The translations under genes were made by a program, and so were the position numbers. 20,162 nucleotides of DNA, from IMG/VR virus record IMGVR_UViG_3300044859_000244, positions 1 through 20,162 of that record. One strand, 5' to 3'. The stretch comes from a virus. Shown in pieces: positions 7,265 through 10,751 of this stretch (position 1 is its first letter; every line of letters starts with the position of its first letter). Below the pieces are notes generated by a model that was not told where the DNA came from, did not search any database, and saw nothing but the letters and a program-made list of their open reading frames with translations.

Positions 7265-8611
7265 TTATACTGCAAAATAACCAGTAGTACTATTCAAGAT
7301 ATCAGCTAAAGCTGTAAATTGAGCACTTGCAGGAACTGCTAAGATAGCATTCATAGATTCACCTGCAATAAAACCTTGTGCAGTAAAATCATTAACAAAT
7401 GCTGTGTATTGTATTCCAACAGTAGAGTAATTAGTTCCAGCTACAGAGTAGATAGGGAAGTTATCAGGTAAGAAACTTCTGTTTGTAAATCCTGAGTAAC
7501 CAACAGCCCAAAGTTCTTTTTTGAAGATTTGAGAGTAAGTACCAGCACCTTCAGTGTAAGGTAATAATTGACCTGATAATGCAGGGTTAGTTCCAGTAGC
7601 AGGAGTTCCAGCAGCAGCAGTGTAAACTTTAGCAACAGTTTGGTTGTTTTGCATTGGAGTTCCAGATAAATTAACTGAACAAGATAAGTTCATGATAATA
7701 TTAAACTGAGGTTCTAATACTTGAGAACCGTTAAATCTGTTACCGTACTCAGTTACTCTAACACCTGCAGTTGCAGCGTTAACAGTAGCAGCAGTAGCTG
7801 AACCAGTTACTAAACCAGCAATTGAAGCGCCTAAAGCAATTTGTGCATTTACATAAGGAGTTTCTAATTCAACAGCAGTAGTTACAACAGATTTTACTCT
7901 ATAGATAGCAGCAGTAGTTGCAGTAGCAGAACCAAATTTAATATAGTCACCTGCAACAACACTTGTTGAACTAACTGATAAAGTAACACTTGCAGAACCG
8001 TTAATTACAGTTGCAGTTGGAACAGAAGTAGTAGCAGCAGTAGTTGCACTTGATAATACTTCAGAGAATGCAAAGTTTTCGTAAGGAGCTACTAAGTTAG
8101 CAGGAAGTAAAGCTTGAGAGTTTACGTCTTTAACAATTGCATTTGCAATAGCTATTGAAGTAGCTGAACCAGCAGTTGTAAAGTTAGGAGTAGAACTCAA
8201 AGTTGGGAAAGGTGGGTTACCTACAGTAGTATTTTGGATTTTAAATCCGTAAGTACCAGCAACACCACTAGTTAAGTCATAAGTAGCAGTTACGCCATCA
8301 TAACCTGCAGTCCAAGCACTAGGTACTGGAGCAACATAAGCAGAGTTTAAATACGCTTTTCCAAACGCTTTAGGAGGAACTACAAAACTTTTAATGTTAC
8401 GACCAGTAGCTGCACCTTGTGCTATCAATATTGATAACCCAGCGTTAGCAGCAGCAAGACCTGCAGCAGCATTAGTTAAACGAGTATACCCGTTATTAGT
8501 AGTAAGAGCAGGATTTATAGAGTAAATCCCAATTTCGCCAGCAGCCAATAAAGTTGGATTTGTAGCAGTTGTGTAAGATACGTTAGTACCTATTAAAACA
8601 TTTTTTAACAT
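7265..8611 (-). CDS. Abundant Ala/Thr-rich virion protein, 448 residues
   Basis: I do not recognise the family. The protein is rich in Ala, Thr, Ser, Val and Gly with very few charged residues and a single cysteine (NLSCSVNLSG), which suggests an all-beta, tightly packed structural protein. It begins MLKNVLIGTNVSYTTATNP and ends DILNSTTGYFAV, with no signal peptide. Candidate roles are tail-tube or auxiliary capsid or decoration protein. High expression is suggested by its private layout: an A-rich leader with repeated CAAAAA just before the ATG, and a strong terminator just after the stop. It follows the two connector-type genes and precedes the fibres, fitting a tail or head-surface component. 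The structural assignment is good; the exact role is open. Confidence 0.8.
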   Translation of the reverse strand: MLKNVLIGTNVSYTTATNPTLLAAGEIGIYSINPALTTNNGYTRLTNAAAGLAAANAGLSILIAQGAATGRNIKSFVVPPKAFGKAYLNSAYVAPVPSAWTAGYDGVTATYDLTSGVAGTYGFKIQNTTVGNPPFPTLSSTPNFTTAGSATSIAIANAIVKDVNSQALLPANLVAPYENFAFSEVLSSATTAATTSVPTATVINGSASVTLSVSSTSVVAGDYIKFGSATATTAAIYRVKSVVTTAVELETPYVNAQIALGASIAGLVTGSATAATVNAATAGVRVTEYGNRFNGSQVLEPQFNIIMNLSCSVNLSGTPMQNNQTVAKVYTAAAGTPATGTNPALSGQLLPYTEGAGTYSQIFKKELWAVGYSGFTNRSFLPDNFPIYSVAGTNYSTVGIQYTAFVNDFTAQGFIAGESMNAILAVPASAQFTALADILNSTTGYFAV

Positions 8612-8654: not shown

Positions 8655-9752
8655 TTATTCATTAGTTTGTTCTACTCCTAAAGAAGATTGCAGTCTACCT
8701 GAAGCCTCCATAGTTTCTAACAATAAATTAACAGCATCTCTAAGTATCTCAGCATGAGTTTCTTCCGATAACTCACATGACTGATTAGTTGTTGATGACA
8801 TCAATCTTGGTTTACGAAGATACGATATTGCAATTTCATTTACAATAAAAGCTTCTGAGCCAGTTGGTCTATAAAATACATCTATAGAATCCGTGTGTAT
8901 AATTGTTAACGGACCTTCAAATGCATCTGTTCTATTAAACGGGTCAACCTGCATTATATACACGTCATCCTGTTGTGCAAATCTATTTGGTGCTATCTCT
9001 TCATTTCCATTAGCTACTATATAGGTTTTAGTATTAGTTACTTTTGTAAAGGTTGAAGGAGATCCTGGATAAGTACCAGTTAACGTATAATACAAATTAT
9101 TTGTATCTGCAGTTGGTACTGTTATAACAATATCTCCTTTTACATTTCTATAATTACTACTATATGCTACCCAACCTGGAGTAGTAAAATTAGTATTATT
9201 ATTTAACGTATCTACAACAGTTTGAATAGCTAAAGTTTTTTCTTGGCCATCTAATCCTGTTAAAGTTCCTACTGGCAACACAATTTGAGCAGCACCAGCA
9301 GTAGCCCCTAATTTCATTCCAAACAATGCGTAGTCTGTTAAAATAGACAAGTTAATTGTAATAGTTTTAAAAGTATCAACTGTATCAACCGGAATTAATG
9401 TTCCACAATGGTTATGTTTCATTTTACTTCTACTAGAAGTAAGGAACATGTAATCACCAGGAAAATAAAACTTTAATTTACTAGCATAATCAAAATCAGT
9501 AATAGGTAACCTAAAGCATTTATCGTAATAATTAGGTACAAGTAAATTTCTTAAATCGTCTATTCTTTTTTGGCTCATTTCAAATCCTTCTCTTTTAGAG
9601 TTAGATAATGCACCATAGCGTTGTTTAATAAATCTTTCTTGTGCTCTATTTAAAAAATAATCCTTTTCTTGCGGAAGAATTATTTCATATAGATTGGAGT
9701 TAAGTTTATTTAACTCCAAGTCTATATTTAAATGCATTTCGGTTATATCCAT
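8655..9752 (-). CDS. Conserved head-tail connector or ring-type virion protein, 365 residues
   Basis: The N-terminus is helical and charged (EIILPQEKDYFLNRAQERFI, then KQRYGALSNSKREGF), the middle is beta-rich, and the end carries YLRKPR near residues 311-316, CELSEETH near 326-333 and a final helix AEILRDAVNLLLETMEASGR. The pairing of YLRKP with CELxEETHxEI is a pattern I associate with a conserved crAss-like virion family that sits after the capsid gene and is regarded as part of the connector or tail tube. The start ATG overlaps the preceding stop by one base (TAATG), showing coupling to the 292-residue gene. The family is recalled rather than searched, so the precise position in the particle is tentative. 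Confidence 0.78.
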   Translation of the reverse strand: MDITEMHLNIDLELNKLNSNLYEIILPQEKDYFLNRAQERFIKQRYGALSNSKREGFEMSQKRIDDLRNLLVPNYYDKCFRLPITDFDYASKLKFYFPGDYMFLTSSRSKMKHNHCGTLIPVDTVDTFKTITINLSILTDYALFGMKLGATAGAAQIVLPVGTLTGLDGQEKTLAIQTVVDTLNNNTNFTTPGWVAYSSNYRNVKGDIVITVPTADTNNLYYTLTGTYPGSPSTFTKVTNTKTYIVANGNEEIAPNRFAQQDDVYIMQVDPFNRTDAFEGPLTIIHTDSIDVFYRPTGSEAFIVNEIAISYLRKPRLMSSTTNQSCELSEETHAEILRDAVNLLLETMEASGRLQSSLGVEQTNE

Positions 9753-10630
9753 TATTTACTTGCCTTTGCTACCTTTTTAAATTCTTTTAAAGGAATTCCA
9801 AATTCTTGTAGTCTTGCTTGTAACACTACATACTCTGAAGAGTTGTTAGGGTCTTTCATCCAAGCAATGGTACCATCTAAGCTACCTAAATTACTACTAC
9901 CATTTAAAAATCTATTTCCTTCTTTTACTAATATGCTGCCTTCAACCATTGACATGATTTCTGCTTTGTATTGTAAATCTTTATCAGAAACTATTTCCAA
10001 GAAGTAAACAGCATCTTTTTTTACTAATTCACTTATTTTAAGTTGTTTCTTTTTAGAGGCAAGAGCTAACAATTCTGTTAAGCTTCCCATCTCAGGATAT
10101 TTAATAATTACGTTTCTAATTACTAGATCTAATTTGTTTTCGTCTTCAACTAACTTAGCAAATTCAACCATTGCTTTAGTCTCAGATTCTAACTCAGTAG
10201 ATTTAATTTCATCTTCTGCTTCTGGATCAGTTATATAGAACTGTAACATTTTATTGTTTTCACACTCATCTTTAGTTTTACCAGTATACGGATGAGCTAA
10301 AGCCATTTTCCATATTAAGTAATCTTCGATGTTTAAGGGCTGCCCTTGAGAATCTTCACCGATCTCTAGTTCTGCACCTTGAAATTCTACTTTCTTTCTT
10401 AAGTTCTTGTAGTAGTTTGATACTGCAACTCTAAAACCTATATCTTTTGGATTAAGGTTAACAATTACCGGCATTAACAAATCTTCTTGTTCATAAGTTA
10501 AAGGTCTAAAAACGTTACCATTTCTATCCATAAAACTAGACAATACTACAACTGTTTCATAAGCAAAAGTATCGGGAAACCCGTATCTTTTAACTTGTTT
10601 TCTCATGATTCTTACTTTTCTACTTTTCAT
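9752..10630 (-). CDS. Conserved phage virion-module protein, 292 residues, function unknown
   Basis: It begins with a basic stretch (MKSRKVRIMRKQVKRYGFPD). The middle is acidic and helical with YITDPEAEDEIKSTELESET, and the C-terminal part includes DAVYFLEIVSDKDLQYKAEI, LNGSSNLGSLDGTIAWMKDP and a last helix. The pattern of an acidic helical middle followed by a segment ending in an LGxxxGxxAWMKDPxN motif is one I have met in structural regions of Bacteroidota phages without a proven function. It lies between the tRNA and the connector-type protein and shares TAATG with the latter. A head-completion or adaptor role is plausible from position. The start is the first ATG after the tRNA and has an A-rich leader (TTTAAAGAAAA). 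Confidence 0.75.
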   Translation of the reverse strand: MKSRKVRIMRKQVKRYGFPDTFAYETVVVLSSFMDRNGNVFRPLTYEQEDLLMPVIVNLNPKDIGFRVAVSNYYKNLRKKVEFQGAELEIGEDSQGQPLNIEDYLIWKMALAHPYTGKTKDECENNKMLQFYITDPEAEDEIKSTELESETKAMVEFAKLVEDENKLDLVIRNVIIKYPEMGSLTELLALASKKKQLKISELVKKDAVYFLEIVSDKDLQYKAEIMSMVEGSILVKEGNRFLNGSSNLGSLDGTIAWMKDPNNSSEYVVLQARLQEFGIPLKEFKKVAKASK

Positions 10631-10648
10631 TTTTCTTTAAAATTTTTG

Positions 10649-10720
10649 TTGCGAGTGAAGGATTTGAACCCCCGATCCCTAGCTTATGAGGCTAGTGAGA
10701 TACCGCTTCTCTAACTCGCA
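10649..10720 (-). tRNA. tRNA with CAT anticodon (Met or lysidine-modified Ile)
   Basis: A complete 72-base cloverleaf reads on the minus strand. The acceptor stem TGCGAGT/ACTCGCA is perfect, the D stem is GAGA/TCTC with loop AGCGGTA, the anticodon arm is CTAGC-CTCATAA-GCTAG, the variable loop has 5 bases, and the T arm is GGGGG-TTCAAAT-CCTTC with two G-T pairs. The anticodon is CAT. The anticodon stem lacks the three G-C pairs of initiators and the 1-72 pair is formed, so it is not an initiator. Elongator Met and AUA-reading Ile cannot be told apart by eye. CCA is not encoded. It sits between the capsid and 292-residue genes in the same direction. Confidence 0.92.
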
Positions 10721-10725
10721 ATATT

Positions 10726-10751
10726 AAGGTAGGGCTATTACACCCTACCTT
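10726..10751 (-). terminator. Hairpin between capsid gene and tRNA
   Basis: A perfect 9-base stem AAGGTAGGG/CCCTACCTT with an 8-base loop begins 6 bases after the capsid stop codon. On the minus strand it is followed by TTAATATT, a weak T-run; on the plus strand by TTTTTT. It may act as a partial terminator of capsid transcription, as a 3'-end stabiliser, or as a boundary for tRNA processing. Confidence 0.65.

Follow-up and report, generated by a model that had tools for sequence, protein, structure and literature searches.

The major capsid protein (MCP) gene in a clade of crAss-like phages is followed by a short cassette, composed of a hairpin and a tRNA or tRNA-like RNA, and from its sequences we judge it slightly more probable than otherwise that this cassette is an RNA-processing mark between the capsid message and the messages of the head genes downstream. 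The observations are of six kinds: the position of the cassette, its fold, its constant occupancy in the sampled clade, the exchange of its occupants, the presence of covarying but decoding-dead forms, and the use of a second junction in a sister clade. Together they suggest that the shape of the tRNA marks where the message is to be cut, and that translating codons is not its main task. The processing idea is favoured because a degraded anticodon arm is the commonest form of the occupant in the relatives.

A hairpin and a CAT tRNA behind the capsid gene

The DNA analysed is the virus record IMGVR_UViG_3300044859_000244, positions 1-20,162, and this whole stretch of 20,162 bases is referred to here as the window. 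It belongs to a crAss-like phage whose principal genes lie on the minus strand (Table 1): TerL and portal come first, then a 368-aa gene that matches no family, the MCP gene, a gene of 292 aa, and one resembling ring protein 3/4. With a crAss-type MCP, portal and TerL in order, the phage falls within the Crassvirales. The MCP also matches phrog_11589 (E 2.4e-81) and the major capsid protein gp32 of PDB entry 7qof (E 1.6e-18). An initial annotation, made from the sequence alone, had placed a tRNA between the capsid and connector genes, leaving the strand unnamed, and the first of these names is borne out by the Crass_capsid match. The second is a guess from position: the 292-aa gene has no PHROG, and Pfam and PDB profile searches with it returned no match of weight.

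Table 1. Features at the capsid gene junction of the window
Feature	Coordinates	Strand	Basis or remark
Major capsid gene (MCP), 476 aa	10758..12188	-	Pfam PF23898 Crass_capsid, E 7.7e-71; upstream of the cassette in transcription
Hairpin, 9 Watson-Crick pairs and 1 wobble, loop of 6	10726..10751	-	Would cap the 3' end of capsid mRNA
Linker AATAT, 5 nt, between hairpin and tRNA	10721..10725	-	Alignment; strings preceding the element in 15 rows
CAT tRNA	10648..10720	-	ARAGORN, RF00005 (63.2 bits), isotype comparison, alignment, pair counts
17 nt from tRNA to next start codon, AAAAATTTTAAAGAAAA	10631..10647	-	Sequence
292-aa gene, downstream of the cassette	9752..10630	-	Relatives 46-98% identical
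Ring protein 3/4-like gene, 365 aa, second after the cassette	8655..9752	-	PF25710 CrAss_Ring_3_4, E 3.9e-7

ARAGORN reports a single tRNA in the whole window, and the Rfam family RF00005 matches positions 10649-10720 at E 7.5e-12, far above its cut-off of 29 bits, with no mispaired positions marked and a seven-nucleotide anticodon loop, CUCAUAA. The tRNA has the pairs U1-A72 and A11:U24 and the anticodon stem CUAGC/GCUAG, and CCA is not encoded. The hairpin in front of it, with arms AAGGTAGGG...CCCTACCTT on the sense strand, is closed by a U.G pair, and the two fold as separate units with a combined energy of -39.7 kcal/mol (z -4.78; none of 200 shuffles as good). ARAGORN, RF00005 and folding thus agree on the complete, co-oriented CAT tRNA, five nucleotides from a hairpin with a nine-pair stem, that the initial annotation had described behind the capsid gene, and a degraded tRNA, which it had named as a finding that would overturn its reading, does not apply to the window copy. 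A scan of the slot against Rfam returned RF00005 only, with four other matches far below their own cut-offs and no ribozyme family.

Two other readings of the region were rejected. An intrinsic terminator on the sense strand has no U-run behind the hairpin, the tail AATATTGC containing a longest T-run of 2, and the terminator pattern was found on the opposite strand only. A prophage or attachment site was rejected, the MCP query having found no relative among contigs of bacterial genomes. Between 8000 and 14000 on the minus strand, the highest-scoring sigma-70-like promoter match lies at 10786-10757 (TCGACT-18-TATAAT, 10/12), at the 3' end of the capsid gene before the hairpin, and a separate transcription start before the window tRNA is possible. 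Promoter-like matches in this interval are at chance overall (21 observed, 21.2 in shuffles), and the TATAAT is absent from three related loci (L007, L008, and L081).

To identify the kind of tRNA, it was compared with the tRNAs of four bacterial genomes, of which three bear the title Sphingobacteriales or Chitinophaga; their CAT tRNAs were sorted into fMet, elongator Met and Ile2 by features that we presume to be diagnostic. By a narrow margin the window tRNA is closest to Bacteroidota fMet (65% identity), followed by elongator Met (60%) and Ile2 (55%); for the ten other phage CAT tRNAs, identity to fMet is 64-89%, while elongator Met does not exceed 67% nor Ile2 65%. Of the three kinds fMet is the nearest for all eleven. 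On a wider list of tRNAs, tRNA-Thr is 63.5% identical to the window copy and is the best match (64.9%) of one relative, L002. All eleven phage elements and the host control have A11:U24, which together with the CAT anticodon we take to be an initiator feature. Two further features that we take to be initiator hallmarks, the lack of a Watson-Crick 1:72 pair and three G:C pairs at 29-31:39-41, are missing from the window, which has U1-A72 and AGC/GCU at these positions; among the eleven, C1xA72 is found in L049 and L060 only, and the complete G:C triple in L067 only. Because these hallmarks are missing we describe the window tRNA as likely descended from an initiator, with drift, and not as an initiator.

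The possibility, raised in the initial annotation, that this is a lysidine-type tRNA-Ile2, serving AUA codons in an AT-rich genome, did not survive these comparisons, and we regard it as very improbable. The CAT anticodon would suit such a tRNA, and ATA accounts for 195 of the 451 Ile codons in the 18 window ORFs counted, but among the three CAT kinds it is Ile2 that the window tRNA resembles least, A11:U24 is present, and the capsid gene uses ATA once among 25 Ile codons (9 ATT, 15 ATC). In the clade described below, moreover, 19 of 25 occupants are something other than a CAT tRNA.

Occupants of the slot in related phages

IMG/VR was scanned with the MCP, the 292-aa protein, and an MCP alignment. 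The alignment scan, covering the best 80 of 81 relatives, yielded 79 loci that are distinct; 13 that end inside the MCP gene were dropped, and 66 have a readable MCP 3' end and sequel. Twenty-four loci with an MCP 63-99% identical to that of the window and a complete slot form, with the window, a clade set of 25; one further clade locus, L045, is cut inside its element and stands outside this count.

The slot is filled in all 25 members, always in the sense orientation and each time by a tRNA-like element that a short linker joins to a hairpin in front of it. The element begins 33-90 nt past the MCP stop codon in the 15 rows measured, the hairpin is present in all 26 rows with a filled slot, and the linker ATAT is found with all 11 phage CAT elements. 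Six occupants are CAT tRNAs (the window, L001, L002, L003, L008, and L016), two are CCA (Trp) tRNAs (L005 and L015), twelve are a tRNA-like RNA that we call TLS (L007, L040, L010, L011, L041, L042, L014, L046, L047, L048, L079, and L081), four are a second cloverleaf (L017, L018, L043, and L044), and in one, L039, only an acceptor-type helix and a T arm are recognisable. Sixteen of the 25 are cloverleaves with an anticodon loop that is not seven nucleotides long, and with L039 the occupants without a normal loop number 17. In L005 an extra short sequence with AGTGC...GCACT arms (2701-2750) precedes the usual hairpin and Trp tRNA, and is possibly the remnant of a second element. ARAGORN, to which TLS is invisible, found no tRNA around the MCP gene at five other crAss-like loci (four named records and one unverified scaffold), for which reason we do not consider the cassette general among crAss-like phages.

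These counts bear directly on the main rival to processing, that the phage supplies a working tRNA, an initiator in the case of the window, which would replace host tRNA destroyed by tRNA-cutting defences or boost initiation, the site behind the capsid gene giving late and strong expression. The CAT copies are cloverleaves whose loop, CUCAUAA, is invariant in all 11 and whose stems covary (paired in 98% of cells, with changes on both sides in 45 cells), which suggests that they still act as tRNAs, and all 11 are nearest to fMet. Phage tRNAs have been proposed as a counter-defence in PMC10264068, and its reference list includes papers on VapC cleavage of initiator tRNA. A supply of initiator sits poorly with the 17 of 25 slots that lack a normal seven-nucleotide anticodon loop (12 TLS, four of the L017 type, and L039), with the loss of the initiator hallmarks from most copies (C1xA72 in 2 of 11, the G:C triple in 1 of 11), and with the differing descent of the occupants (fMet, Trp, and Gln). 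We consider it unlikely, and an additional role in translation is possible for the window occupant.

TLS is the commonest occupant, and its D and T arms are nearly invariant across phages with MCPs 63-83% identical to that of the window. Its acceptor stem is unusual in having an extra U and a UU/C internal loop, and in the hand-drawn structure the stem of the anticodon arm is rebuilt with other letters around a loop of 3, 5 or 6 nt. Across seven distinct rows 96.8% of cells are paired and 9 of 22 pairs have changed on both sides, a result matched by none of 500 shuffles, with the structure having been fitted by hand to the same seven rows, which favours it, and the shuffles ignoring relatedness; registers slid along the alignment are 38-60% paired. 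Three of the four helices show compensatory changes, and the D stem does not vary. Single-sequence minimum-energy folds give no clean cloverleaf for TLS of L007, L010, and L081, nor for the ordinary tRNAs of L008 and L015. TLS has no seven-nucleotide anticodon loop with U33, and the tRNA finders used miss it: ARAGORN makes no call at TLS loci, and RF00005 at E<=1 has no match in the four searched (L007, L010, L014, and L048).

A model built from TLS, R1, scores TLS at 94-104 bits and ordinary tRNAs, in the slots or elsewhere, at 24-46 bits, and has no match in the slots of L001, L017, and L039. When the viral collection was scanned with a TLS pattern, the 12 contigs matched were the same 12 with TLS at the slot; in the 83.8-kb record of L081, TLS is the sole R1 match and RF00005 finds none. 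A host search covered 295 bacterial genomes, from the class of a MAG titled Chitinophaga pinensis, with up to 15 candidates scored per genome and stricter filters. The best R1 score among these candidates was 53.4 bits, against the 94-104 bits of the phages, and an origin of TLS as a host RNA was rejected; TLS was not found outside these phages among the viral collection and the candidates scored in the 295 genomes. At each of the eight best bacterial loci lies an ordinary tRNA-Gln(TTG), which makes tRNA-Gln the probable ancestor of TLS.

The near invariance of the D and T arms, perhaps beyond what a cleavage signal needs, and the probable descent from tRNA-Gln would suit a tRNA-like RNA with another function: luring synthetases, nucleases or modification enzymes as a decoy, or controlling translation of the 292-aa gene as an operator. 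A single specific ligand is hard to reconcile with unrelated cloverleaves at the same place, and we find this explanation improbable.

ARAGORN calls the L017 type a tRNA with an undefined anticodon, and it folds with a 6-nt anticodon loop. In the L039 element (7470-7600) an acceptor-type helix (7-8 pairs) and a T arm enclose a longer, unrelated middle of about 80 nt, in a phage whose MCP is 98% identical to that of the window; the fold of this element is no better than shuffles (z -0.63), and a split or intron-containing tRNA was rejected when ARAGORN with introns allowed found none. Odd elements also occur at other places in these records. L170, the record of L077, has tRNA-model matches of 24.2 and 33.9 bits at 160-227 and 2377-2445, far from the capsid gene, with anticodon loops that look odd by eye and no ARAGORN call, and these phages may carry decoding-dead tRNAs more widely. 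L168 and L169, the records of L062 and L094, carry identical 113-nt tRNA-like genes (39 bits), which ARAGORN calls tRNA-Gly(TCC) interrupted by an intron of some 40 nt. In L173 (the record of L080), from a sister-clade phage without a slot tRNA, a lone T-arm-like stretch lies at 191-263 (R1 19.9 bits, E 0.004).

Exchange of occupants

Comparison of close relatives shows that occupants can differ between otherwise identical junctions. L007 and L008 are 100% identical (rounded) over 1400 nt of MCP DNA and over the 600 nt downstream, and their elements are 68% identical, the one being TLS and the other a CAT tRNA; from the sequences this difference is a replacement. The window and L001 have flanks that are 98% (1400 nt) and 99% (103 nt) identical around elements that are 77% identical. 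L081 and L007 present the reverse pattern, with MCP DNA 79%, downstream DNA 68%, and the element 92% identical. An MCP tree of 56 rows, from which 11 loci with MCPs of 41-47% identity were left off, requires at least seven changes of element kind among the 26 filled rows, some of which may be decay instead of replacement.

Such exchange is also what an insertion or recombination hotspot would produce, in which tRNAs and their debris are swapped through conserved flanks or by homing-endonuclease conversion, with little function. Flavobacterium phage FpV4 (L165, 7646-8428) has an annotated HNH endonuclease directly behind the MCP gene, and post-capsid ORFs in L085 (3536-4138) and L166 (from about 4487) are candidate GIY-YIG-like genes by eye. 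The identical flanks around the swapped elements of L007 and L008 are in keeping with this, as is L016, which has its hairpin and trailer in common with both. We nonetheless regard a hotspot of little function as rather unlikely: all 25 slots are occupied and always in the sense orientation, the compensatory changes in the TLS helices argue against debris, and the element shared by L081 and L007 is better conserved than its flanks, although an element passed on horizontally would show the same pattern.

A second junction and the proposed processing of the capsid message

In a sister clade of 23 loci, with MCPs about 60% identical to that of the window, the gap behind the MCP gene is 70-92 nt where measured and contains a hairpin without a tRNA. 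In this clade the arrangement of hairpin, ATAT and CAT tRNA is found one gene further on: of the 20 loci readable where the ring gene follows the 292-aa gene, 9 carry it (three of the 23 are unreadable at this junction), and the hairpins there have sequences of their own. In the record of a more distant relative, L098 (L171/L174, 1647-1718), a hairpin, ATTT, and a tRNA-Arg(TCT) lie between two ORFs, and by eye the layout is the same as that of the cassette.

A hairpin with at least three G:C pairs follows the MCP gene in 55 of the 56 rows tested, with or without a tRNA. T-runs were measured in the 12 nt past the last G/C of the hairpin, with L073, which has no hairpin by this rule, left out. 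None of the 26 filled slots has a T-run of at least 5 (four have a run of 4), in contrast to 24 of the 29 empty slots, whose hairpins resemble intrinsic terminators. L072 is the clear exception to this pattern. The contrast fits a terminator where the slot is empty and a processed 3' end where it is filled; as the filled and empty states switched twice on the tree, it consists of two independent contrasts and is without statistical power. Behind the capsid gene of L072 lies a stretch of about 280 nt with strong hairpins (7423 to about 7705) and no Rfam match over cut-off, which looks like an insertion, its close relative L073 having a much shorter gap.

We propose that hairpin and tRNA form one cassette that would part the capsid message from the following head-gene message by RNA processing. 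Transcription would read through the cassette, and host RNase P would cut at the 5' end of the cloverleaf, leaving the capsid message with the hairpin and a few nucleotides, and thus with a protected 3' end formed without termination; host tRNA 3' processing would release the next message just ahead of its start codon. The feature required would be the tRNA fold, above all the acceptor and T arms, and the anticodon would be immaterial; on this proposal the slot is filled with varied tRNAs and tRNA-like RNAs because the fold and not the anticodon is needed. Because the occupants share a cloverleaf, or at minimum an acceptor-type helix with a T arm, shortly behind a hairpin, and do not share an anticodon, recognition by tRNA-processing enzymes would be the simplest function common to them. 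The enzymes, the cleavage, and the effects on mRNA stability and on protein ratios are what we infer from this arrangement. The idea in the initial annotation, of a message cut after the capsid gene when the tRNA is excised, gains indirect support from the lack of an empty slot among the 25, the exchangeable occupant, and the 16 of 25 occupants that are cloverleaves with a loop other than seven nucleotides long, the cleavage itself being predicted.

Parallels exist in other systems. In mitochondrial polycistronic RNA, intergenic tRNAs mark the cutting sites (tRNA punctuation). The phage arrangement differs in being confined to one or two junctions, in having a hairpin in front, and in that most of its elements are not ordinary tRNAs. 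The nearest working parallel, by analogy, is MALAT1/mascRNA, and likewise NEAT1/menRNA, where a tRNA-like RNA on the 3' side is cut by RNase P and an upstream structure protects the end (PMC10869381). Those are vertebrate lncRNAs with a triple helix, whereas the phage cassette lies in a protein operon, with a plain hairpin, genes behind it, a swappable element, and a cleavage that is predicted. The chances are about even that in this lineage the capsid mRNA acquires a MALAT1-style 3' end, with RNase P acting at a tRNA or at a purpose-evolved, decoding-dead tRNA-Gln descendant that would be a new RNA family, the end capped by a hairpin, transcription continuing, and the cassette being a module exchanged between phages and between junctions.

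Other likenesses are more partial. The TMERs of MHV68 have a virus-encoded tRNA part, not detectably charged where tested, and ELAC2 3' processing that frees the neighbouring RNA (PMC12239594); they differ in being herpesvirus Pol III transcripts with miRNA cargo that do not lie between protein genes. The closest phage device in the literature consulted is the Theta ribozyme, an RNA-processing device beside tRNAs of gut phages whose hosts are thought to be Bacteroidota and Bacillota (PMC10879173); Theta ribozymes are self-cleaving, HDV-like, and proposed to act on the 3' trailer, whereas in the cassette the hairpin is on the 5' side. Non-tRNA substrates of RNase P listed in PMC11143913 include phage M3 RNA, the phage-derived antisense C4 RNA, the TYMV tRNA-like structure, and mRNAs; the likeness is that RNase P cuts a phage or viral RNA, and none of them is a cloverleaf cassette behind a capsid gene. 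Among the matches listed from open PMC papers, no title reports such a cassette following the capsid gene of a phage.

The reason why phages carry tRNAs has been unclear for more than 50 years, as PMC10264068 states in its abstract, and the usual answers are codon supply and escape from tRNA-cutting defences. A single junction at which normal-looking and decoding-dead tRNAs are interchangeable is a natural experiment that parts tRNA shape from decoding. If the predicted cleavage occurs, bacterial viruses would have a route to mRNA 3' ends of which organelles and vertebrate lncRNAs have so far provided the known examples. A single operon could then yield unequal amounts of capsid and neck proteins, and the known RNA families would be joined by a new one that escaped the tRNA finders used.
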